Source: Paenibacillus thiaminolyticus (GTDB lineage Bacteria; Bacillota; Bacilli; Paenibacillales; Paenibacillaceae). From it: 64,000 bases of DNA. The notes beneath the pieces were generated by a model. The model ran no database searches. It was not told where the DNA came from and saw nothing but the letters and a program-made list of their open reading frames with translations. A program made the translations under genes and the position numbers. Positions 5,635 through 25,349 of the stretch are shown piece after piece (position 1 is the stretch's first letter; each line of letters starts with the position of its first letter). The stretch spans positions 5,279,001-5,343,000 of the forward strand of contig NZ_CP041405.1 in assembly GCF_007066085.1 (NCBI RefSeq), written 5' to 3'.

Positions 5635-5910
5635 GTCTCTCCCCCAATGATCGTTCCTCTCCAGCGTCGTTATCCTGAAAATAGAATAGTATCCCTGTGT
5701 GTAGATATTTATCCTTGTAGCCGGCCCGCTAGGGTGCTTTATTGGAATGTATAGAGCTCCTGGGAATATTTTGCTCGGTCCTGGTCCGTGGTGACAGAGG
5801 CTGCAGCGGCCAGGAGGGAACGAAGCTGGGGGTGATGCTGTAGAAACGGCGACGTTGGCCTTCCCGAAGGCTTGATTCATGCTGATAACAAAAAGGAGGA
5901 ATGTAATGAA

Positions 5911-8900
5911 ATGAGGGCAGCGAACCGCAAAGCACTGGTTTGTCTCTTTGTCATCGCCTTGGTTTGTTCCGTCTTCCCGGCAAGCGTATTTGCGGCCCCG
6001 GCATGGGCGCCGAATACCGATTATCGGGTCGGCGATGTCGTCACCTACGGCGGCACCGACTACAAATGCATCCAGCCGCACACTTCACTGAACGGATGGG
6101 AGCCGCCGAACGCGCCGGCGCTGTGGATGCCGCAAGCAGGCCCCGGGCCGGAGCCGGAACCGGAGCCGGATACCGAGCCGCCGGCGGCGCCGGCGAATCT
6201 GGCCGTCACCGGCTTCACGTCCACGGCCGTGTCGCTTAGCTGGAGCGCAGCGAGCGATAATGTCGGTGTCACCGGCTACGAGGTGTACCGGAACGGAACG
6301 CTCGCGGGAACGACCGCGATCACGTCGTATACCGTGACGGGACTGACGCCGGATACGTCGTATTCGTTCGCCGTGAAGGCGAAGGATGCGGCGGGCAATG
6401 CTTCCGCATCGAGTGCGGCCGTGACCGTCACTACCGCACCGGGAGGACCGGACCCGAATCCGGCCCCCGGCAAGCTGCTGATCGGCTATTGGCATAATTT
6501 CGACAATGGCTCGACCGCCCTGAAGCTGCGCGATGTATCGCCGCAGTATGACGTCATTCATGTCGCCTTCGCCGAGACCGTGGGGAGAGACCACTCGACC
6601 TTAAGCTTCACGCCGTACAACGTCACGGTCGCGGAATTCCGGTCGGATGTCGCTTACTTGCACAGCCAGGGGAAAAAGGTGCTGATTTCCATCGGCGGGC
6701 AGAACGGCTCGGTTGAGCTTCACAGCAATCAGGATGTCCAAAATTTCGTAAATTCATTGGCAAGCATTATCCAGACCTATGGATTTGACGGATTGGATAT
6801 CGATTTGGAGGGCGGTTCCGTCTCGCTGGGCGCCGGGGACACGGATTACCGCCATCCGACGACGCCGAAAATCGTCAATCTCATCGCCGCGGTCCGGCAG
6901 CTCAGCGATCGCGTCGGCCCGGGCTTCATGCTGACGATGGCGCCGGAGACTGCTTACGTCCAGGGCGGCATCGTCGCCTACGCCGGTCCATGGGGCGCCT
7001 ACCTGCCCGTCATTCACGGGCTGCGTGACAAGCTGGACTTCATTCATGTCCAGCATTATAACGCCGGCGGCAACGAGGCGTTGGACGGCCGGGTCTATAC
7101 ACAGGGGACGGCCGATTTCCAGGTTGCTATGGCGGAAATGCTGCTGCGGGGCTTCCCGATCGGACGCAACCCGAACAATCTGTTCCAGCCGCTGCGGGAA
7201 GAACAGGTCGCGATCGGCCTCCCGGCGGTGCCTAGCGCTGCGCCTTCGGGCGGCTACACCTCAGGGGCGGATATCGCGAAGGCTCTCCGCTATATTGTGA
7301 AGGGCACATCCTACGGCGGTACGTATACGCTGCAGCAAGCCGGAGGATATCCGAACTTTCGCGGCGTGATGACATGGTCGGTCAATTGGGACGCCACGAG
7401 CGGCTATGCCTTTGCCAATCAGGTACGGTCGGCCCTCGGCGGATTAAGCAGCGCCGCCGGCCTTGCCGCTGGCCCGGAACAGGCGGTCCGCATCCTGTCG
7501 GCGCCGCCAGCAGTCGCTGAAGCGTCGCTGCCAGCAGTGGCCGAAGCGCCGCTCCCAGCCGCCGCTGAACCGTCGCCGCCAGCAGCCGCCGAAGCGCTGC
7601 CGGCTGCTGACGTAGCCCTTGCCGCGGCTGCGGCCTGGGCTACGGGAGTGAGTTACGCCGTCAACGATTACGTATCCTATCAAGGGAAGATATACCGCTG
7701 CCGTCAGCCGCATACGTCGCTGGCGGGCTGGGAGCCGCCCAACGTGCCGGCGCTGTGGAGCTACGTCGGCGAGGGAGAAGCGCCGGAGGATAACGAACCT
7801 CCCAGCGCACCGGCCGATCTGAGGCTGATCGGCAAGACGGCGACCAGTGTGTCGCTCGCATGGAGCCCGGCGGCAGACAATATCGGGGTGACCGGATACG
7901 AGGTGTACCGGGATCAGACATTGGCCACGACGACGAGCGGTACAAGCGCGATTGTGACCGGGTTGGCGCCGGAGACGGCGTATTCCTTCACGGTGAAGGC
8001 GAAGGATGCGGCTGGCAATGTCTCCCCTCCCAGCGCTGCCTTGAGCGTGACGACCTCTGCTGCCGGCGGGCCGGCTCCGCTGCCCGGTAAAGTATTGGTC
8101 GGCTACTGGCATAACTTCGTGAACGGCGCGGGCTTTCTTCCGCTGCGTGATGTCTCCACCAATTTCGATGTTATCCATGTCGCGTTTGCTGAACCGGCGG
8201 ACAACAGCGGGAAGATTGAATTCACGCCTTACCAATATACCGATGCCGCCTTCAAGGAAGATGTCGCTTACTTGCAAAGTCTGGGCAAAAAAGTGACTCT
8301 CTCGATCGGCGGCCAGAACGGCCACGTCGAATTGACGACTCCCGCCGCCCGCGACCGGTTCGTCCAATCGGTGATTGCGATTATCGAGAAGTACGGATTT
8401 GACGGATTGGACATTGATTTCGAAGGGCAGTCGCTTTATCTGAACCAAGGGGATACGGACCTCGAGCGCCCGACGACACCTGCGGTTATCCATCTGATTG
8501 ATGCGCTGCGCGCCATTCATGATCATTTCAGAGCGGAGTTCCTGCTGACGATGGCGCCGGAGACATTTTTCGTCCAGGTCGGGTACACGAATTACGGCGC
8601 AGGCCAATGGGGCGGCGATCGGCGCGCCGGGGCATACTTGCCTGTCATCCATGCCTTGCGCGACATCATCGCTTGGGTGCAGGTGCAGCATTACAACTCT
8701 GGACCGGTAACCGGTCTCGACAATCGGTTCTATTCGATGGGCAGCGCCGATTTCCATGTGGCGATGGCCGACATGCTGGTGACGGGCTTCCCGCTCGCCA
8801 AAGATCCGAACCGGCTCTTTCCGGGGCTCCGTCCGGACCAGGTCGTCATCGGCCTGCCGGCTGACAGCCAGGCGGGCAACGGCTATACGAGCGCCGCAGA

Positions 8901-9081
8901 AGTGCATAAAGCGCTCGATTATCTCATCAAGGGGCGAGCGTTCGGGGGCAGCTATTCGCTGCGGAACCCGTCCGGTTATCCAGAGCTCCGCGGCTTGATG
9001 ACGTGGTCGATTAATTGGGACCGCTTCAACCGATTCGGCTTCTCCGATCCGCATCGCGCTTATTTGGACCGGTTGCATTGA
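5911..9081 (+). CDS. Secreted two-module GH18 chitinase
   Basis: This is a 1056-residue exported chitinase that hydrolyses beta-1,4-linked N-acetylglucosamine chains outside the cell. A signal peptide (about 1-28, ending SVFA) is followed by two complete modules in the same order. Module one has a CBM5/12 chitin-binding domain (30-75), FnIII (89-175) and GH18 (186-510). An Ala/Pro/Glu-rich linker (511-573) leads to module two, with CBM5/12 (574-620), FnIII (629-715) and GH18 (725-1050). Each catalytic domain keeps the full DGLDIDxE motif, with the acid at E300 and E838, and a motif around GYWHNF. The ATG at 5911 follows AAAGGAGG; an upstream in-frame start at 5872 would spoil the signal peptide. 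The linker is GC-rich and repetitive. The gene is monocistronic. Confidence 0.92.
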   Translation: MRAANRKALVCLFVIALVCSVFPASVFAAPAWAPNTDYRVGDVVTYGGTDYKCIQPHTSLNGWEPPNAPALWMPQAGPGPEPEPEPDTEPPAAPANLAVTGFTSTAVSLSWSAASDNVGVTGYEVYRNGTLAGTTAITSYTVTGLTPDTSYSFAVKAKDAAGNASASSAAVTVTTAPGGPDPNPAPGKLLIGYWHNFDNGSTALKLRDVSPQYDVIHVAFAETVGRDHSTLSFTPYNVTVAEFRSDVAYLHSQGKKVLISIGGQNGSVELHSNQDVQNFVNSLASIIQTYGFDGLDIDLEGGSVSLGAGDTDYRHPTTPKIVNLIAAVRQLSDRVGPGFMLTMAPETAYVQGGIVAYAGPWGAYLPVIHGLRDKLDFIHVQHYNAGGNEALDGRVYTQGTADFQVAMAEMLLRGFPIGRNPNNLFQPLREEQVAIGLPAVPSAAPSGGYTSGADIAKALRYIVKGTSYGGTYTLQQAGGYPNFRGVMTWSVNWDATSGYAFANQVRSALGGLSSAAGLAAGPEQAVRILSAPPAVAEASLPAVAEAPLPAAAEPSPPAAAEALPAADVALAAAAAWATGVSYAVNDYVSYQGKIYRCRQPHTSLAGWEPPNVPALWSYVGEGEAPEDNEPPSAPADLRLIGKTATSVSLAWSPAADNIGVTGYEVYRDQTLATTTSGTSAIVTGLAPETAYSFTVKAKDAAGNVSPPSAALSVTTSAAGGPAPLPGKVLVGYWHNFVNGAGFLPLRDVSTNFDVIHVAFAEPADNSGKIEFTPYQYTDAAFKEDVAYLQSLGKKVTLSIGGQNGHVELTTPAARDRFVQSVIAIIEKYGFDGLDIDFEGQSLYLNQGDTDLERPTTPAVIHLIDALRAIHDHFRAEFLLTMAPETFFVQVGYTNYGAGQWGGDRRAGAYLPVIHALRDIIAWVQVQHYNSGPVTGLDNRFYSMGSADFHVAMADMLVTGFPLAKDPNRLFPGLRPDQVVIGLPADSQAGNGYTSAAEVHKALDYLIKGRAFGGSYSLRNPSGYPELRGLMTWSINWDRFNRFGFSDPHRAYLDRLH

Positions 9082-9120: not shown

Positions 9121-9150
9121 TTGACAGAAGGCGGCTCCATCGCATACAAT
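9121..9150 (+). promoter_or_regulatory. Sigma-A promoter for the ABC-F leader
   Basis: TTGACA (9121-9126), an 18-bp spacer and TACAAT (9145-9150) form a near-consensus vegetative promoter. The expected transcription start is near 9157. Confidence 0.75.
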
Positions 9151-9219
9151 GAAGATATGCATGCCGCAGCGAGACGGGCGGGCATTACATTTCGAAGGAA
9201 AGGGCAAGGTATATCGCCG

Positions 9220-9231
9220 ATGAGCAATTAA
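9220..9231 (+). CDS. Candidate three-codon uORF (Met-Ser-Asn)
   Basis: ATG AGC AAT TAA is preceded by purine-rich sequence with AAGG about ten bases upstream. Very short leader peptides on which drug-bound ribosomes stall are known before ARE-type ABC-F genes in Bacillota. That is the reason for listing it. The sequence alone cannot show that it is translated. Confidence 0.35.
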   Translation: MSN

Positions 9232-9281
9232 TCCGAACTGAAGCGAATCATTTTGACGATATCGATTTCAAAATGTACGTT

Positions 9282-9295
9282 CAGAGAGGATAGAT
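9282..9295 (+). promoter_or_regulatory. Antiterminator strand for the ABC-F attenuator
   Basis: CAGAGAGGATAGAT is the exact reverse complement of 9547-9560, which includes the 5' arm of the terminator at 9553-9573. Pairing can extend to 16 bp (9280-9295 with 9547-9562) with one G-U pair. Formation of this helix would break the terminator and free the ABC-F ribosome binding site. Confidence 0.65.
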
Positions 9296-9552
9296 CTGCC
9301 TGCGGGCGGATTGTCACCGGCTATGTCTTGACCCACATTCAAGGATATCATTGCTGTTGCGCGCTTCGGCGAAGTGTGAACTTGCGCTGACACGCGCGAT
9401 GGACTGACTGCCTAAGCGGTGCAGGCGCTGCAAGATGCAGGCGGCTTCGGCCGCTTGCGAAGGGACGCTGCCTCTGGGGCACGCGTTGTTTTGCGGCTTG
9501 CCGGCAGCATGGCCAGCGGCCAGACGTCCTTGAGCATTGCCGTATCATCTAT

Positions 9553-9580
9553 CCTCTCTGGAATCCAGGGAGGTTTTTTT
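9553..9580 (+). terminator. Attenuator terminator overlapping the ABC-F Shine-Dalgarno
   Basis: The 5' arm CCTCTCTGG (9553-9561), loop AAT and 3' arm CCAGGGAGG (9565-9573) make a 9-bp stem with one U-G pair. Seven T (9574-9580) run directly into the ATG at 9581. The 3' arm AGGGAGG is itself the ribosome binding site, so the hairpin could block both transcription and translation. Confidence 0.85.
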
Positions 9581-11311
9581 ATGTATTCAAACAGATACTC
9601 GGAAGGCAGACAACGGCCCCCTGCCGGCAAGCTTGTATTGGAGGCGAGCGGCTTGGCCGCCGAGGCCGGAGACCGCCGTTTGTTCTCGATTCCGGAGACG
9701 CTGCGCGTCTATTCCGGCGAACGAATCGGGCTAATCGGGGCGAACGGTGCAGGCAAGACGACACTAATTCGGATATTGGCGGGGCTGCTGGAGCCTGCGC
9801 AAGGAAGCGTCAGGCGAATGGCATCCTGCGCTTTCGTGCCTCAGCTCGACGATATCCGGGATGAAGCCTCGGCCGAAGCGACGCTTAGCGGCGGAGAGCG
9901 GACGAAGCGGCGGCTCGAGCAGGCGCTGCAGGGCGGCGCCGAGCTGCTGCTGCTCGACGAGCCGACCAGCCATCTCGATATGGAGCAGATGAAGCGAATG
10001 GAAGAGCGGCTGCTCGATTTCTCACGGACGGGCACGCTGCTGCTTATCTCGCATGACCGGACGCTCCTGAACCGGGTTTGCACGAAAATATGGGAGATGG
10101 AAAACGGAACCCTCCATATTTATGCCGGCGGCTACGACGATTACCGCGTAGAGAAGGAACGGCTGCGCACGGAGCGCGAGCGCGAGTATGACCAGTATAT
10201 CGCGGAGCGGGACCGGCTGCAGGAGATGATCGTCCAGACGAGGGTCATGGCGCAGGGCGTTGGCACCCCGCGTCCACGCAAAGGCTTGACCAGCAAGGAG
10301 ATTCGTTCTGCCCGCCCTCACTTCAACCGCAAGCAGGGGAAGATGGATAAGCGGGTCAAGGCGATGGAGACGCGGCTGGAGAAGCTGCCGCAGGTGGAGC
10401 GCCCGTTCGAGCTTCCTCCCGTCGCCTTCGATGCAGAGTGCCACCGGCCGCTTCGGAGCAAGAGCGCACTCGAGGTGAAGGAGCTGCGGCTCTGCGCCGG
10501 GGAGCGGGAGCTGGTGCGGGACGGCAGCTTCCGCATCCGTCCGCAGATGAAGGTAGCCTTGCTCGGGCCGAACGGCTCGGGGAAGACGACGCTGCTGCGG
10601 CTGCTGAAGCAGAGAAGCGAGACCCCGGACGGCGGGCCGGAAGCGAGCGCTTCATCTGCCATGATCCGGTTCGCGCCGAATGCGCGCGTCGCCTATTTCG
10701 ATCAGAAGCTGTACTCGCTTGACCTGCAGGAGAGCGCCTTGGAGAACGTGCAGAAGTCGAGCGCCTACGACCAGACCGCCATCCGCACGGCCTTGGCCCG
10801 GCTGCGGCTGCGCCGGGACGAGGCGTTGAAGCCGGTCTGGCAGCTAAGCGGCGGAGAGAAGGTCAAGACACAGCTCGTCAAGCTGTTCCTGAGCGAAGCC
10901 AATGTGCTGCTGCTCGATGAGCCGACGAATTACCTCGACATCGAGGCTCGCGAGGAGTTGGAGCGGGTGTTGGCCGCCTATCCGGGGACGCTTCTGTTCG
11001 CGACCCATGACCGTATGCTGCTGGAACGGACGGCCACGCATGTCCTCCGCTTCAACGGACAGTCGTTGGAGCTGCTGCCGATCGAGGCGCTGCACGCCGA
11101 CAGGGAGTCGCCGCCGCAGCAGGACTCGCAAGCCGTTGGTACGGCCCCGCAGCAAGCGGCCTGGACGGAAGAGCAGCGGATGAAGGTCGAGCTGGAATGG
11201 TCCGAGCTGCTGTCCCGGCTGTCCCAGCCGGTTCGCCATGACGAGGCCGAGAAGGAGCGGCTAGAGCGGCGTTACGCCGAATTGCTTGAGCTGCGCAGGG
11301 CGATGCGATGA
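9581..11311 (+). CDS. ABC-F protein, putative ribosome-protection type
   Basis: This 576-residue protein has two ABC ATPase domains and no membrane segments, which is the ABC-F layout. Walker A motifs are GANGAGKT (53-60) and GPNGSGKT (329-336). Each half also has an LSGGE signature and a DEPT..LD Walker B/D-loop with the catalytic glutamate. A charged, coiled-coil-like interdomain linker joins them. ABC-F proteins of this size in Bacillota include antibiotic resistance factors (VmlR, Vga, Lsa groups) that dislodge drugs from the ribosome. The attenuated leader supports that reading over a housekeeping role. Drug specificity, such as lincosamide, streptogramin A or pleuromutilin, cannot be read. 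The ATG at 9581 is preceded by AGGGAGG seven bases away. Confidence 0.85.
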   Translation: MYSNRYSEGRQRPPAGKLVLEASGLAAEAGDRRLFSIPETLRVYSGERIGLIGANGAGKTTLIRILAGLLEPAQGSVRRMASCAFVPQLDDIRDEASAEATLSGGERTKRRLEQALQGGAELLLLDEPTSHLDMEQMKRMEERLLDFSRTGTLLLISHDRTLLNRVCTKIWEMENGTLHIYAGGYDDYRVEKERLRTEREREYDQYIAERDRLQEMIVQTRVMAQGVGTPRPRKGLTSKEIRSARPHFNRKQGKMDKRVKAMETRLEKLPQVERPFELPPVAFDAECHRPLRSKSALEVKELRLCAGERELVRDGSFRIRPQMKVALLGPNGSGKTTLLRLLKQRSETPDGGPEASASSAMIRFAPNARVAYFDQKLYSLDLQESALENVQKSSAYDQTAIRTALARLRLRRDEALKPVWQLSGGEKVKTQLVKLFLSEANVLLLDEPTNYLDIEAREELERVLAAYPGTLLFATHDRMLLERTATHVLRFNGQSLELLPIEALHADRESPPQQDSQAVGTAPQQAAWTEEQRMKVELEWSELLSRLSQPVRHDEAEKERLERRYAELLELRRAMR

Positions 11312-25176: not shown

Positions 25177-25193
25177 CTCGTTATGAATTGAAT

Positions 25194-25325
25194 ACGGCCG
25201 AATTTCGTGAATTACGAAAGCGGGGGACCCGATCATTGGGGTGAATTTTGCGCCGATCCGCATTATGGATCTTGGCAAATAGGGCGGCCTGGACGCGCCC
25301 GAATCCGTCAGCTAACCTCGTAGGC
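25194..25325 (+). ncRNA. c-di-AMP riboswitch (ydaO/yuaA type)
   Basis: The conserved blocks of the ydaO/yuaA aptamer appear in order: GCCGAAT, CGGGGGACCC, TTGGGGTGAAT, ATAGGGC, GCCCGAATCCGTC, and AGCTAACCTCGTAGGC at the 3' end. This class binds cyclic di-AMP and turns genes off when it is abundant. It lies between a promoter and a terminator, directly ahead of a potassium channel gene. That matches its known control of potassium uptake in Bacillus. Confidence 0.92.
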
Positions 25326-25349
25326 ATTGAACGTCAGGATACCAGCGTT

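Follow-up and report, generated by a model that had tools for sequence, protein, structure and literature searches.

Probable ribosome-mediated attenuation of a Vga-like ABC-F gene in Paenibacillus thiaminolyticus, and a leader motif apparently shared with other resistance genes of Bacilli

What governs the expression of the Vga-like ABC-F ribosome-protection gene in the chromosome of Paenibacillus thiaminolyticus is the question raised by the DNA that precedes it. The window, i.e., the whole 64,000-nucleotide (nt) stretch that was analysed (NZ_CP041405.1, positions 5,279,001 to 5,343,000, forward strand), provides this gene with a leader of about 424 nt, the transcription start site being taken as ~9157. 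The original prediction, made from the letters of this DNA, had proposed joint control of transcription and translation by an antibiotic, and this is still the best reading, the drug side of it being inferred. Sequence comparison, folding models and analogy with characterized systems indicate that the leader is very probably a ribosome-mediated attenuator, opened by a drug-stalled ribosome on a short upstream open reading frame (uORF); the presence of the attenuator architecture is near certain, and a ribosome-driven response to the drug is likely by analogy. Two parts are new relative to the original prediction, an anti-antiterminator stem at 9231-9291 and a conserved motif at 9288-9301. The features of the locus are as follows (SD, Shine-Dalgarno sequence).

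9121..9150, + strand: sigma-A promoter, TTGACA-18-TACAAT (direct reading and promoter scan)
9202..9209, + strand: SD of the uORF, GGGCAAGG, strongly conserved in 18 leaders
9220..9231, + strand: uORF Met-Ser-Asn-stop (ATG AGC AAT TAA), M-X-N conserved
9228..9294, + strand: predicted anti-antiterminator stem-loop (folds and covariation) made of P1 (9231-9234/9288-9291, the outer pairs 9228-9229/9293-9294 being only transient, in short transcripts), P2 (9238-9245/9278-9284) and P3 (9249-9256/9268-9275)
9282..9295, + strand: antiterminator segment CAGAGAGGATAGAT, complementary to the terminator 5' arm (inverted-repeat search)
9288..9301, + strand: diverged copy GGATAGATCTGCCT of the motif GGGATNNGTCTGYCYATTTT, with no T-run after it; candidate pause; core kept in 18/18 leaders
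9302..9546, + strand: spacer, about 250 nt with its flanks, roughly kept in length and not in sequence (alignment)
9326..9334, + strand: predicted pairing partner of the uORF SD (minimum free energy folds of 9157-9546 and 9157-9600)
9547..9560, + strand: terminator 5' region complementary to the antiterminator (inverted-repeat search)
9553..9580, + strand: intrinsic terminator with a 9-bp stem (9553-9573), loop AAT and seven T (9574-9580) (direct reading and terminator scan)
9567..9573, + strand: SD of the ABC-F gene, AGGGAGG, within the terminator 3' arm, conserved in 18/18 leaders
9581..11311, + strand: Vga-like ABC-F ribosome-protection protein of 576 aa (NCBIfam score)

The elements named in the original prediction can be read directly. 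The sigma-A promoter (TTGACA at 9121-9126, a spacer of 18 and TACAAT ending at 9150) has 11 of the 12 consensus bases; the promoter scan found one promoter-like site vs. a shuffle mean of 0.5, and a similar layout is seen by eye upstream in L002-L007 (L and G numbers are our labels of loci and genomes). The Met-Ser-Asn uORF, ATG AGC AAT TAA, lies at 9220-9231 after GGGCAAGG. Segment 9282-9295 is the exact reverse complement of 9547-9560, with 251 nt between the arms, and this is the longest perfect inverted repeat in 561 bases, where the chance expectation for a 14-nt pair is about 6e-4 (our own estimate for uniform composition). The terminator does contain the SD of the ABC-F gene, AGGGAGG at 9567-9573 being part of its 3' arm, and the seven T at 9574-9580 end at the ATG at 9581, as claimed.

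From these parts the following mechanism can be proposed. With no drug present, the ribosome would finish the three-codon uORF and depart, and RNA 9231-9245 would pair with 9278-9291, concealing the antiterminator; the terminator at 9553-9573 would then form and halt transcription at the start codon, and it would also conceal the ABC-F SD in any read-through RNA. A drug that stalls the ribosome in the first uORF codons would make it mask the post-uORF RNA, so that the freed 9282-9295 could pair with 9547-9560, and transcription and translation of the ABC-F gene would both proceed. The conserved stretch at the 3' edge of the antiterminator may, with the balance about level, be a programmed RNA polymerase pause, which would let the ribosome load while the uORF SD is not yet concealed by RNA made later (9326-9334 in the predicted fold).

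Conservation was examined in 19 genomes of the genus, 18 of which gave an ABC-F match at E <= 1e-70 (none in G009); for each of the 18, the sequence ahead of its best-matching ABC-F gene was read as the leader. The uORF, the complementary segments, the terminator, its overlap with the SD and the seven T recur in all 18 leaders, whose 5' domain and terminator align well; the loss of the two complementary segments in relatives, which had been named as grounds for giving up the prediction, was thus not found. The uORF starts M-X-N in each of them, followed immediately by a stop in 15 and reading M-D-N-N in three, where X is S, N, I, D, E, L or W and the Asn codon AAT or AAC (the uORF of L014 was set by eye as MWN, the script having given MKG). 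Between the antiterminator and the terminator 5' arm the complementarity spans 8 to 16 nt. As to the covariation between 9282-9295 and 9547-9560 which the original prediction wished to see, both segments vary little within the genus and the test of cross-pairing therefore leans on other genera. L015-L018, four leaders from further genera, carry M-X-N or M-X-Y uORFs and matching segments of their own, 91-135 nt apart. Cognate antiterminator:terminator duplexes have a mean energy of -19.92 kcal/mol vs. -14.18 kcal/mol for non-cognate ones, and cognate duplexes of the post-uORF RNA with the antiterminator -12.98 vs. -9.87 kcal/mol; in neither case was any of 20,000 permutations as low. The set comprised 13 leaders in six sequence groups, with segments cut by the authors, and the related rows, which are not independent, make these numbers optimistic.

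More distant leaders keep only a part of this design. In L055-L058, from another family, the SD, the motif core and the long spacer are kept while the terminator and antiterminator are changed (L057 has short matches only), and the uORF continues beyond codon 3: MDHESQS, MDNESES, MDYVSVS and MDNTSESEGRRI. The loss of the stop after codon 3 in these four is a natural hint that the stall would occur at the earliest codons rather than at the stop codon. A covariance model of the leader (R1) has one match in the own genome and matches in 10 of 296 genomes of the order, six of them of the genus (seven genus genomes were in the draw); the remaining four belong to another family and have longer uORFs.

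The predicted anti-antiterminator is strong in the window folds and partly backed by covariation, the measures of which are mixed. In the window the pair probabilities are >=0.89 for the P1 core and P3, and in P2 0.95-1.0 for five of the seven pairs and 0.67 and 0.35 for the other two. Across the 18 leaders 91.2% of alignment cells are paired vs. 34-47% when the structure is slid by 1-3 columns, P2 being the least regular helix (76.4%), and 23 cells are changed on both sides, with a covariation score of 0.269, neither value being matched in any of 500 shuffles. RNAalifold on the MAFFT alignment gave P0 and P1 only and the upper stem was set by hand, so the pairing percentages lean toward the hand-set structure. 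P0 joins the uORF SD at 9202-9209 with the conserved TCTGYC at 9295-9301; 99.2% of its cells pair, and its changes are on one side only. In the window folds 9293-9300 forms a local hairpin with 9305-9312 and the uORF SD pairs with 9326-9334; P0 is thus not a likely partner of the uORF SD in the window, and the folds suggest that this SD is probably concealed by RNA synthesized after the motif.

The anti-antiterminator, the antiterminator and the terminator are mutually exclusive according to prediction and comparison. In full-length folds without a ribosome the terminator wins in all 18 leaders (probability >=0.95). When a ribosome was imposed on the window leader, the folding that the original prediction had called for, the energy of the antiterminator minus that of the terminator fell from +9.6 to +2.1 (codon 1) and -0.6 kcal/mol (codon 3). 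In nascent RNA ending just ahead of the terminator 3' arm, a ribosome at codon 3 raises the antiterminator above 0.8 in 17 of the 18 leaders.

Several results weigh against the attenuator as proposed. With the codon-3 ribosome, full-length equilibrium folds give an antiterminator probability above 0.3 in just seven of the 18 leaders, and at the nascent stage before the terminator is complete the antiterminator already exceeds 0.5 in seven of 18 without any ribosome. In L023-L026 the antiterminator matches the terminator over just 8 bp. As to the anti-antiterminator, its six pairs with two-sided changes were matched by 45 of 500 shuffles and its 18 further pair types by 363 of 500, and P0 is not formed in the window folds (probability 0.00-0.08). 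The uORF SD is also just weakly exposed at the supposed pause, with a mean unpaired probability of 0.46, then 0.50 fourteen nt later and 0.30 before the terminator, the drop exceeding 0.15 in two and eight of the 18 leaders (for nine of the 18 the script had used a neighbouring GGAAAGG as the SD). A purely equilibrium account of the switch is insufficient given the full-length folds; as these do not favour the antiterminator in most leaders, the switch, if real, must be kinetic and dependent on the order of events.

Could something other than a stalled ribosome, e.g., an RNA-binding protein or a ligand acting on the conserved 5' stem, drive the switch? The 5' domain is conserved beyond the needs of the uORF, and ribosome stalling is itself deduced from analogy; against this, the M-X-N pattern, the uORF SD and a stop codon that overlaps the anti-antiterminator all speak for a ribosome, which according to experiments drives the same design in VmlR and CplR. 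Rfam offered nothing relevant to the leader at the gathering score in the window and 17 leader loci, and just two chance-like matches (E 0.9-1) with the leader alone. Such a driver appears very improbable. That the terminator is simply constitutive, serving housekeeping or the 3' end of the upstream gene, with an incidental inverted match, is hardly credible. In its favour, terminators near gene ends are common, and about 40 bp separate the promoter from the end of the preceding ORF (5872-9081), which is chitinase-like by eye; but the promoter sits between that gene and the terminator, and the uORF is kept together with all three pairing segments in 18/18 leaders, with joint changes across genera.

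The gene under the control of this probable attenuator encodes a ribosome-protection ABC-F, with 415.9 bits against the NCBIfam model NF000355 (cut-off 380). With the NCBIfam Vga model it reaches 455.3 bits, below the cut-off of 725, and it is hence called Vga-like only. Among solved structures, 7nhl, a lincosamide-streptogramin A resistance protein, and 7nhn (Lmo0919) are nearest in sequence; close relatives at the protein level come from Paenibacillus, including P. dendritiformis, P. apiarius and P. alvei. From the kinship with Vga and VmlR, the inducing drug would belong to the lincosamides, pleuromutilins or streptogramins A.

The wide spacing of the complementary segments had been regarded as unusual. 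The distance of about 250 nt is real, but as a special feature it is weak, because it ranges from 165 to 279 nt in the 18 genus leaders and is ~91-135 nt in the four leaders from further genera. No conserved spacer sequence was seen in the alignment of the 18 leaders; in each of them the spacer is more stable than the mean of 60 shuffles (z from -0.3 to -3.7). It is also worth mentioning that an exact 12-nt inverted repeat, GCTTGCCGGCAG, links the spacer (window 9496-9507) with early ABC-F codons (9621-9632), and words like it are seen by eye in L002-L005; it could form an additional layer of translational control.

The second question raised by the locus concerns the 3' edge of the antiterminator, since 9288-9301 carries, in diverged form, a motif (AACGGGATNNGTCTGYCCATTTTTA) that is found far beyond this gene. 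The motif emerged from another ABC-F leader of the same genome, L065, which carries GGATAGATCTGCCCATTT, identical with the letters after the antiterminator in L006. The first pattern, GGATNNNTCTGYCYATTT, drawn from window-type leaders and L065, had 40 matches in 60 related genomes vs. three for the reversed pattern, 14 of the 40 being circular (10 window-type genus leaders, L065 and its close copies L083, L084 and L088). The window copy itself, GGATAGATCTGCCTGCGGG, lacks the T-run and matches no search pattern; of the 18 orthologous leaders, 10 fit the first one. A second pattern, GGATNNGTCTGYCYATTTT, had 36 matches in 296 genomes of the order vs. two for the reversed control, none of them a pattern source, and GGGATNNGTCTGYCYATTTT had 15 matches in 250 genomes of the class vs. 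none for the control, 14 of which fell in the 228 genomes outside the order of the window. Thirteen motif matches lie in viral contigs, and the fexA leader of a staphylococcal plasmid contains a copy with two mismatches, any match at that level being found in 2 of 200 shuffles.

A resistance-type gene follows 33 of the 36 order matches (one unclear MFS pump included) and all 15 class matches. In the order these are ABC-F (13), RlmA-like (10), HflX (6), FexA-like (2), Erm (1) and another MFS (1), with three matches (L103, L127, L176) left without an assigned family, and in the class ABC-F (8), HflX (2), Mph-like (2), Erm (2) and RlmA-like (1), the reversed patterns serving as the control for these searches. 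Labels were given to the three longest same-strand frames starting within 750 bases by phmmer against labelled references (E < 1e-5); references named beforehand by NCBIfam lie among the 51 matches themselves (L100, L112, L114, L121, L122, L139, L141; some renumbered). By NCBIfam, HflX (TIGR03156, 447.1 vs. 216.75) and Erm (NF000499, 250.4 vs. 212) are above their cut-offs, whereas the RlmA/Erm(32)-type (129.8 of 550), Mph (471.2 of 615), FexA (564.6 of 900) and Mef (208.6 of 800) proteins are below and are hence called "-like"; the MFS pump of L112 is its own reference, with a weak NCBIfam match (47.3 bits, cut-off 700). None of the pattern sources was the leader of an HflX, Erm, RlmA, Mph or FexA gene. 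Letters that the pattern does not force are also kept in 44 distinct windows: C before GGGAT in 41, the first G in 40 and C at +13 in 35. On this comparative evidence the motif is very likely a real shared element. Many motif leaders have an Arg-X-Arg uORF, e.g., MVHYIRLR before RlmA-like genes, and these uORFs fit the macrolide arrest motif R/K-X-R/K (PMC6851288). If real, the motif would offer a sequence handle for finding resistance genes that are inducible and often silent, and whose regulation is not apparent from protein annotation alone. No description of it was found in the literature by searching for its letters (one unrelated paper), its wording or Paenibacillus attenuators, a search whose coverage excluded figures and most subscription papers.

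Some of the loci met in these searches have further peculiarities. Among the 40 matches of the first pattern, neighbours that are Rid-like (L078, L089), serine-hydrolase-like (L085) or chance-looking (L073, L093, L094) also occur, the Rid-like gene, found in two genomes, standing behind a 21-codon leader ORF and being preceded by the motif. Upstream of the motif-bearing HflX gene of L079, CRISPR repeats (RF01315) occupy positions 460-956 of the locus. A third ABC-F gene of the own genome (L060/L172, G000:C1:1595625) has a leader ORF of about 50 codons containing the variant GGGATAGGTGTGTCCATTTTT, followed by a terminator-like hairpin.

What might the motif do? T-3 and G-11 belong to the consensus of the elemental RNA polymerase pause. 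So do G-10, Y-1 and G+1 (PMC12288461). Set in register as GGGATNNGTCT followed by G, the motif presents G-11, G-10, T-3, T-1 and G+1, which in the window places the candidate pause with the RNA 3' end at 9297 and G+1 at 9298. The positions G-10, Y-1 and G+1 are all present in the window-type leaders, since T-1 and G+1 are invariant columns in the 18 and, with the register on TCTGYC, G-10 occurs in 18/18 (G-11 in six); L014 lacks one base, and an extra G preserves its register, while L016 and L017 carry GGGATACGTGCG, which also fits. A pattern that leaves -2, -1 and +1 unspecified (CGGGATNNGTNNNYCYATTTT) had 30 matches in 292 genomes (control 1), of which 24 read CTG; the exceptions were one GTG, in front of the third own-genome ABC-F gene, one CGG, an exception at -1, before a Mef-like gene with an RLR uORF, and four (GTT, TAA, AAT, ATG) that do not look leader-like by eye. 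The distance from the uORF start to the supposed pause is 77-89 nt, and at that point the polymerase would have cleared the entire uORF. By eye, no TTNTTT, which at -11 to -6 of the non-template strand marks a NusG-dependent pause of the B. subtilis type, was seen within the motif consensus. A register fit to a short consensus is not strong evidence alone, and whether the motif acts as a programmed pause appears evenly poised. The broader proposal, that six or more unrelated resistance families of the Bacilli (ABC-F, HflX, RlmA-like and Erm rRNA methyltransferases, Mph-like phosphotransferases and FexA-like efflux pumps) have drug-sensing leaders sharing AACGGGATNNGTCTGYCCATTTTTA as a programmed pause, placed ahead of the RNA that would conceal the start of the uORF and ensuring that a ribosome checks each nascent leader before the switch, is tentative and falls slightly short of an even chance.

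Alternatively, the motif might be kept for RNA pairing, concealing the uORF SD through P0, and not for pausing. This would agree with the nearly complete pairing of P0 cells in the 18 leaders and with a crude duplex scan of 45 resistance leaders (mean z -1.3, 17 of the 45 below -1.5), in which low z values came mainly from ABC-F and FexA-like leaders, most HflX, RlmA and Erm leaders being unremarkable. The low P0 probability in the window folds reduced its chances, though; the changes in P0 are confined to one side, the motif is present before leaders with differing uORF SDs, and this reading is considered unlikely. Shared ancestry, i.e., a leader cassette copied between resistance genes in which the motif has no function of its own, is more doubtful still. 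HflX, Erm, Mph and RlmA leaders share, by eye, a CTCTG hairpin and the stop-codon region, and the search for exact copies under-sees drift, the window copy being itself drifted; ABC-F and FexA-like leaders, on the other hand, apparently share just ~22 nt with the others, and the unforced letters are kept as well.

Two observations touch neither the attenuator nor the motif. The first concerns ~1270-1460 of locus L059 (G000:C1:5656503 region) and a second ABC-F gene of the own genome, of 6.6 Mb, which is Lsa-like by eye. In its leader an SD precedes what looks like a start-stop uORF (ATG TAA), and then come AATTTCTTGC, GGCAAGAAAG and a terminator, GTAAGAAAGG..CTTTCTTGC; this is possibly an attenuator with a one-codon sensor. 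A c-di-AMP riboswitch (RF00379, 85.4 bits) is present at 25186-25341 of the window, on the + strand.

Among known systems, the proposed pause has a counterpart in the tlrB/yxjB leader of B. subtilis, in which a polymerase pause helps translation of the leader peptide before its start becomes hidden and contributes to tlrB induction (PMC6851288). This is the logic proposed here for the motif, but the tlrB pause is NusG-dependent and has a pause hairpin, whereas the shared motif has no exact TTNTTT. The leader rli80 of the Listeria hflXr gene lmo0762 likewise combines a uORF, an anti-antiterminator, an antiterminator and a terminator, its uORF being an RLR one of 14 aa (PMC6310831), and in this analysis the shared motif is present in HflX leaders whose uORFs are RLR-like. 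The vmlR leader of B. subtilis is 219 nt long and has the uORF MIN (MDN also works), an anti-antiterminator that the stalled ribosome is considered to break, and several pauses, a part of which lie opposite the uORF (PMC9226507). The window leader resembles it in the three-codon uORF, the anti-antiterminator on the uORF, the antiterminator, the terminator, the sequestration of the SD and the ABC-F product; it differs in its length of ~424 nt and in that the terminator itself conceals the SD, a role partly played in vmlR by a separate hairpin, SL-4 (PMC9226507). In the latter respect it is closer to cplR of C. difficile, with the uORF MRI and an SD-concealing terminator, where both levels of control were shown by reporters (PMC10201436); a three-codon uORF, the SD in the terminator hairpin (here 9567-9573, in 18/18 leaders) and, as predicted for the window leader, termination at the start codon and dual attenuation are common to both, although the cplR leader has 212 nt, another uORF and an ABC-F product of another subfamily (PMC10201436). 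Judged from sequence and analogy, the window leader would thus be built, and work, in kind like the VmlR and CplR attenuators, its own feature being the leader of ~424 nt, and it would extend their scheme to Paenibacillus.

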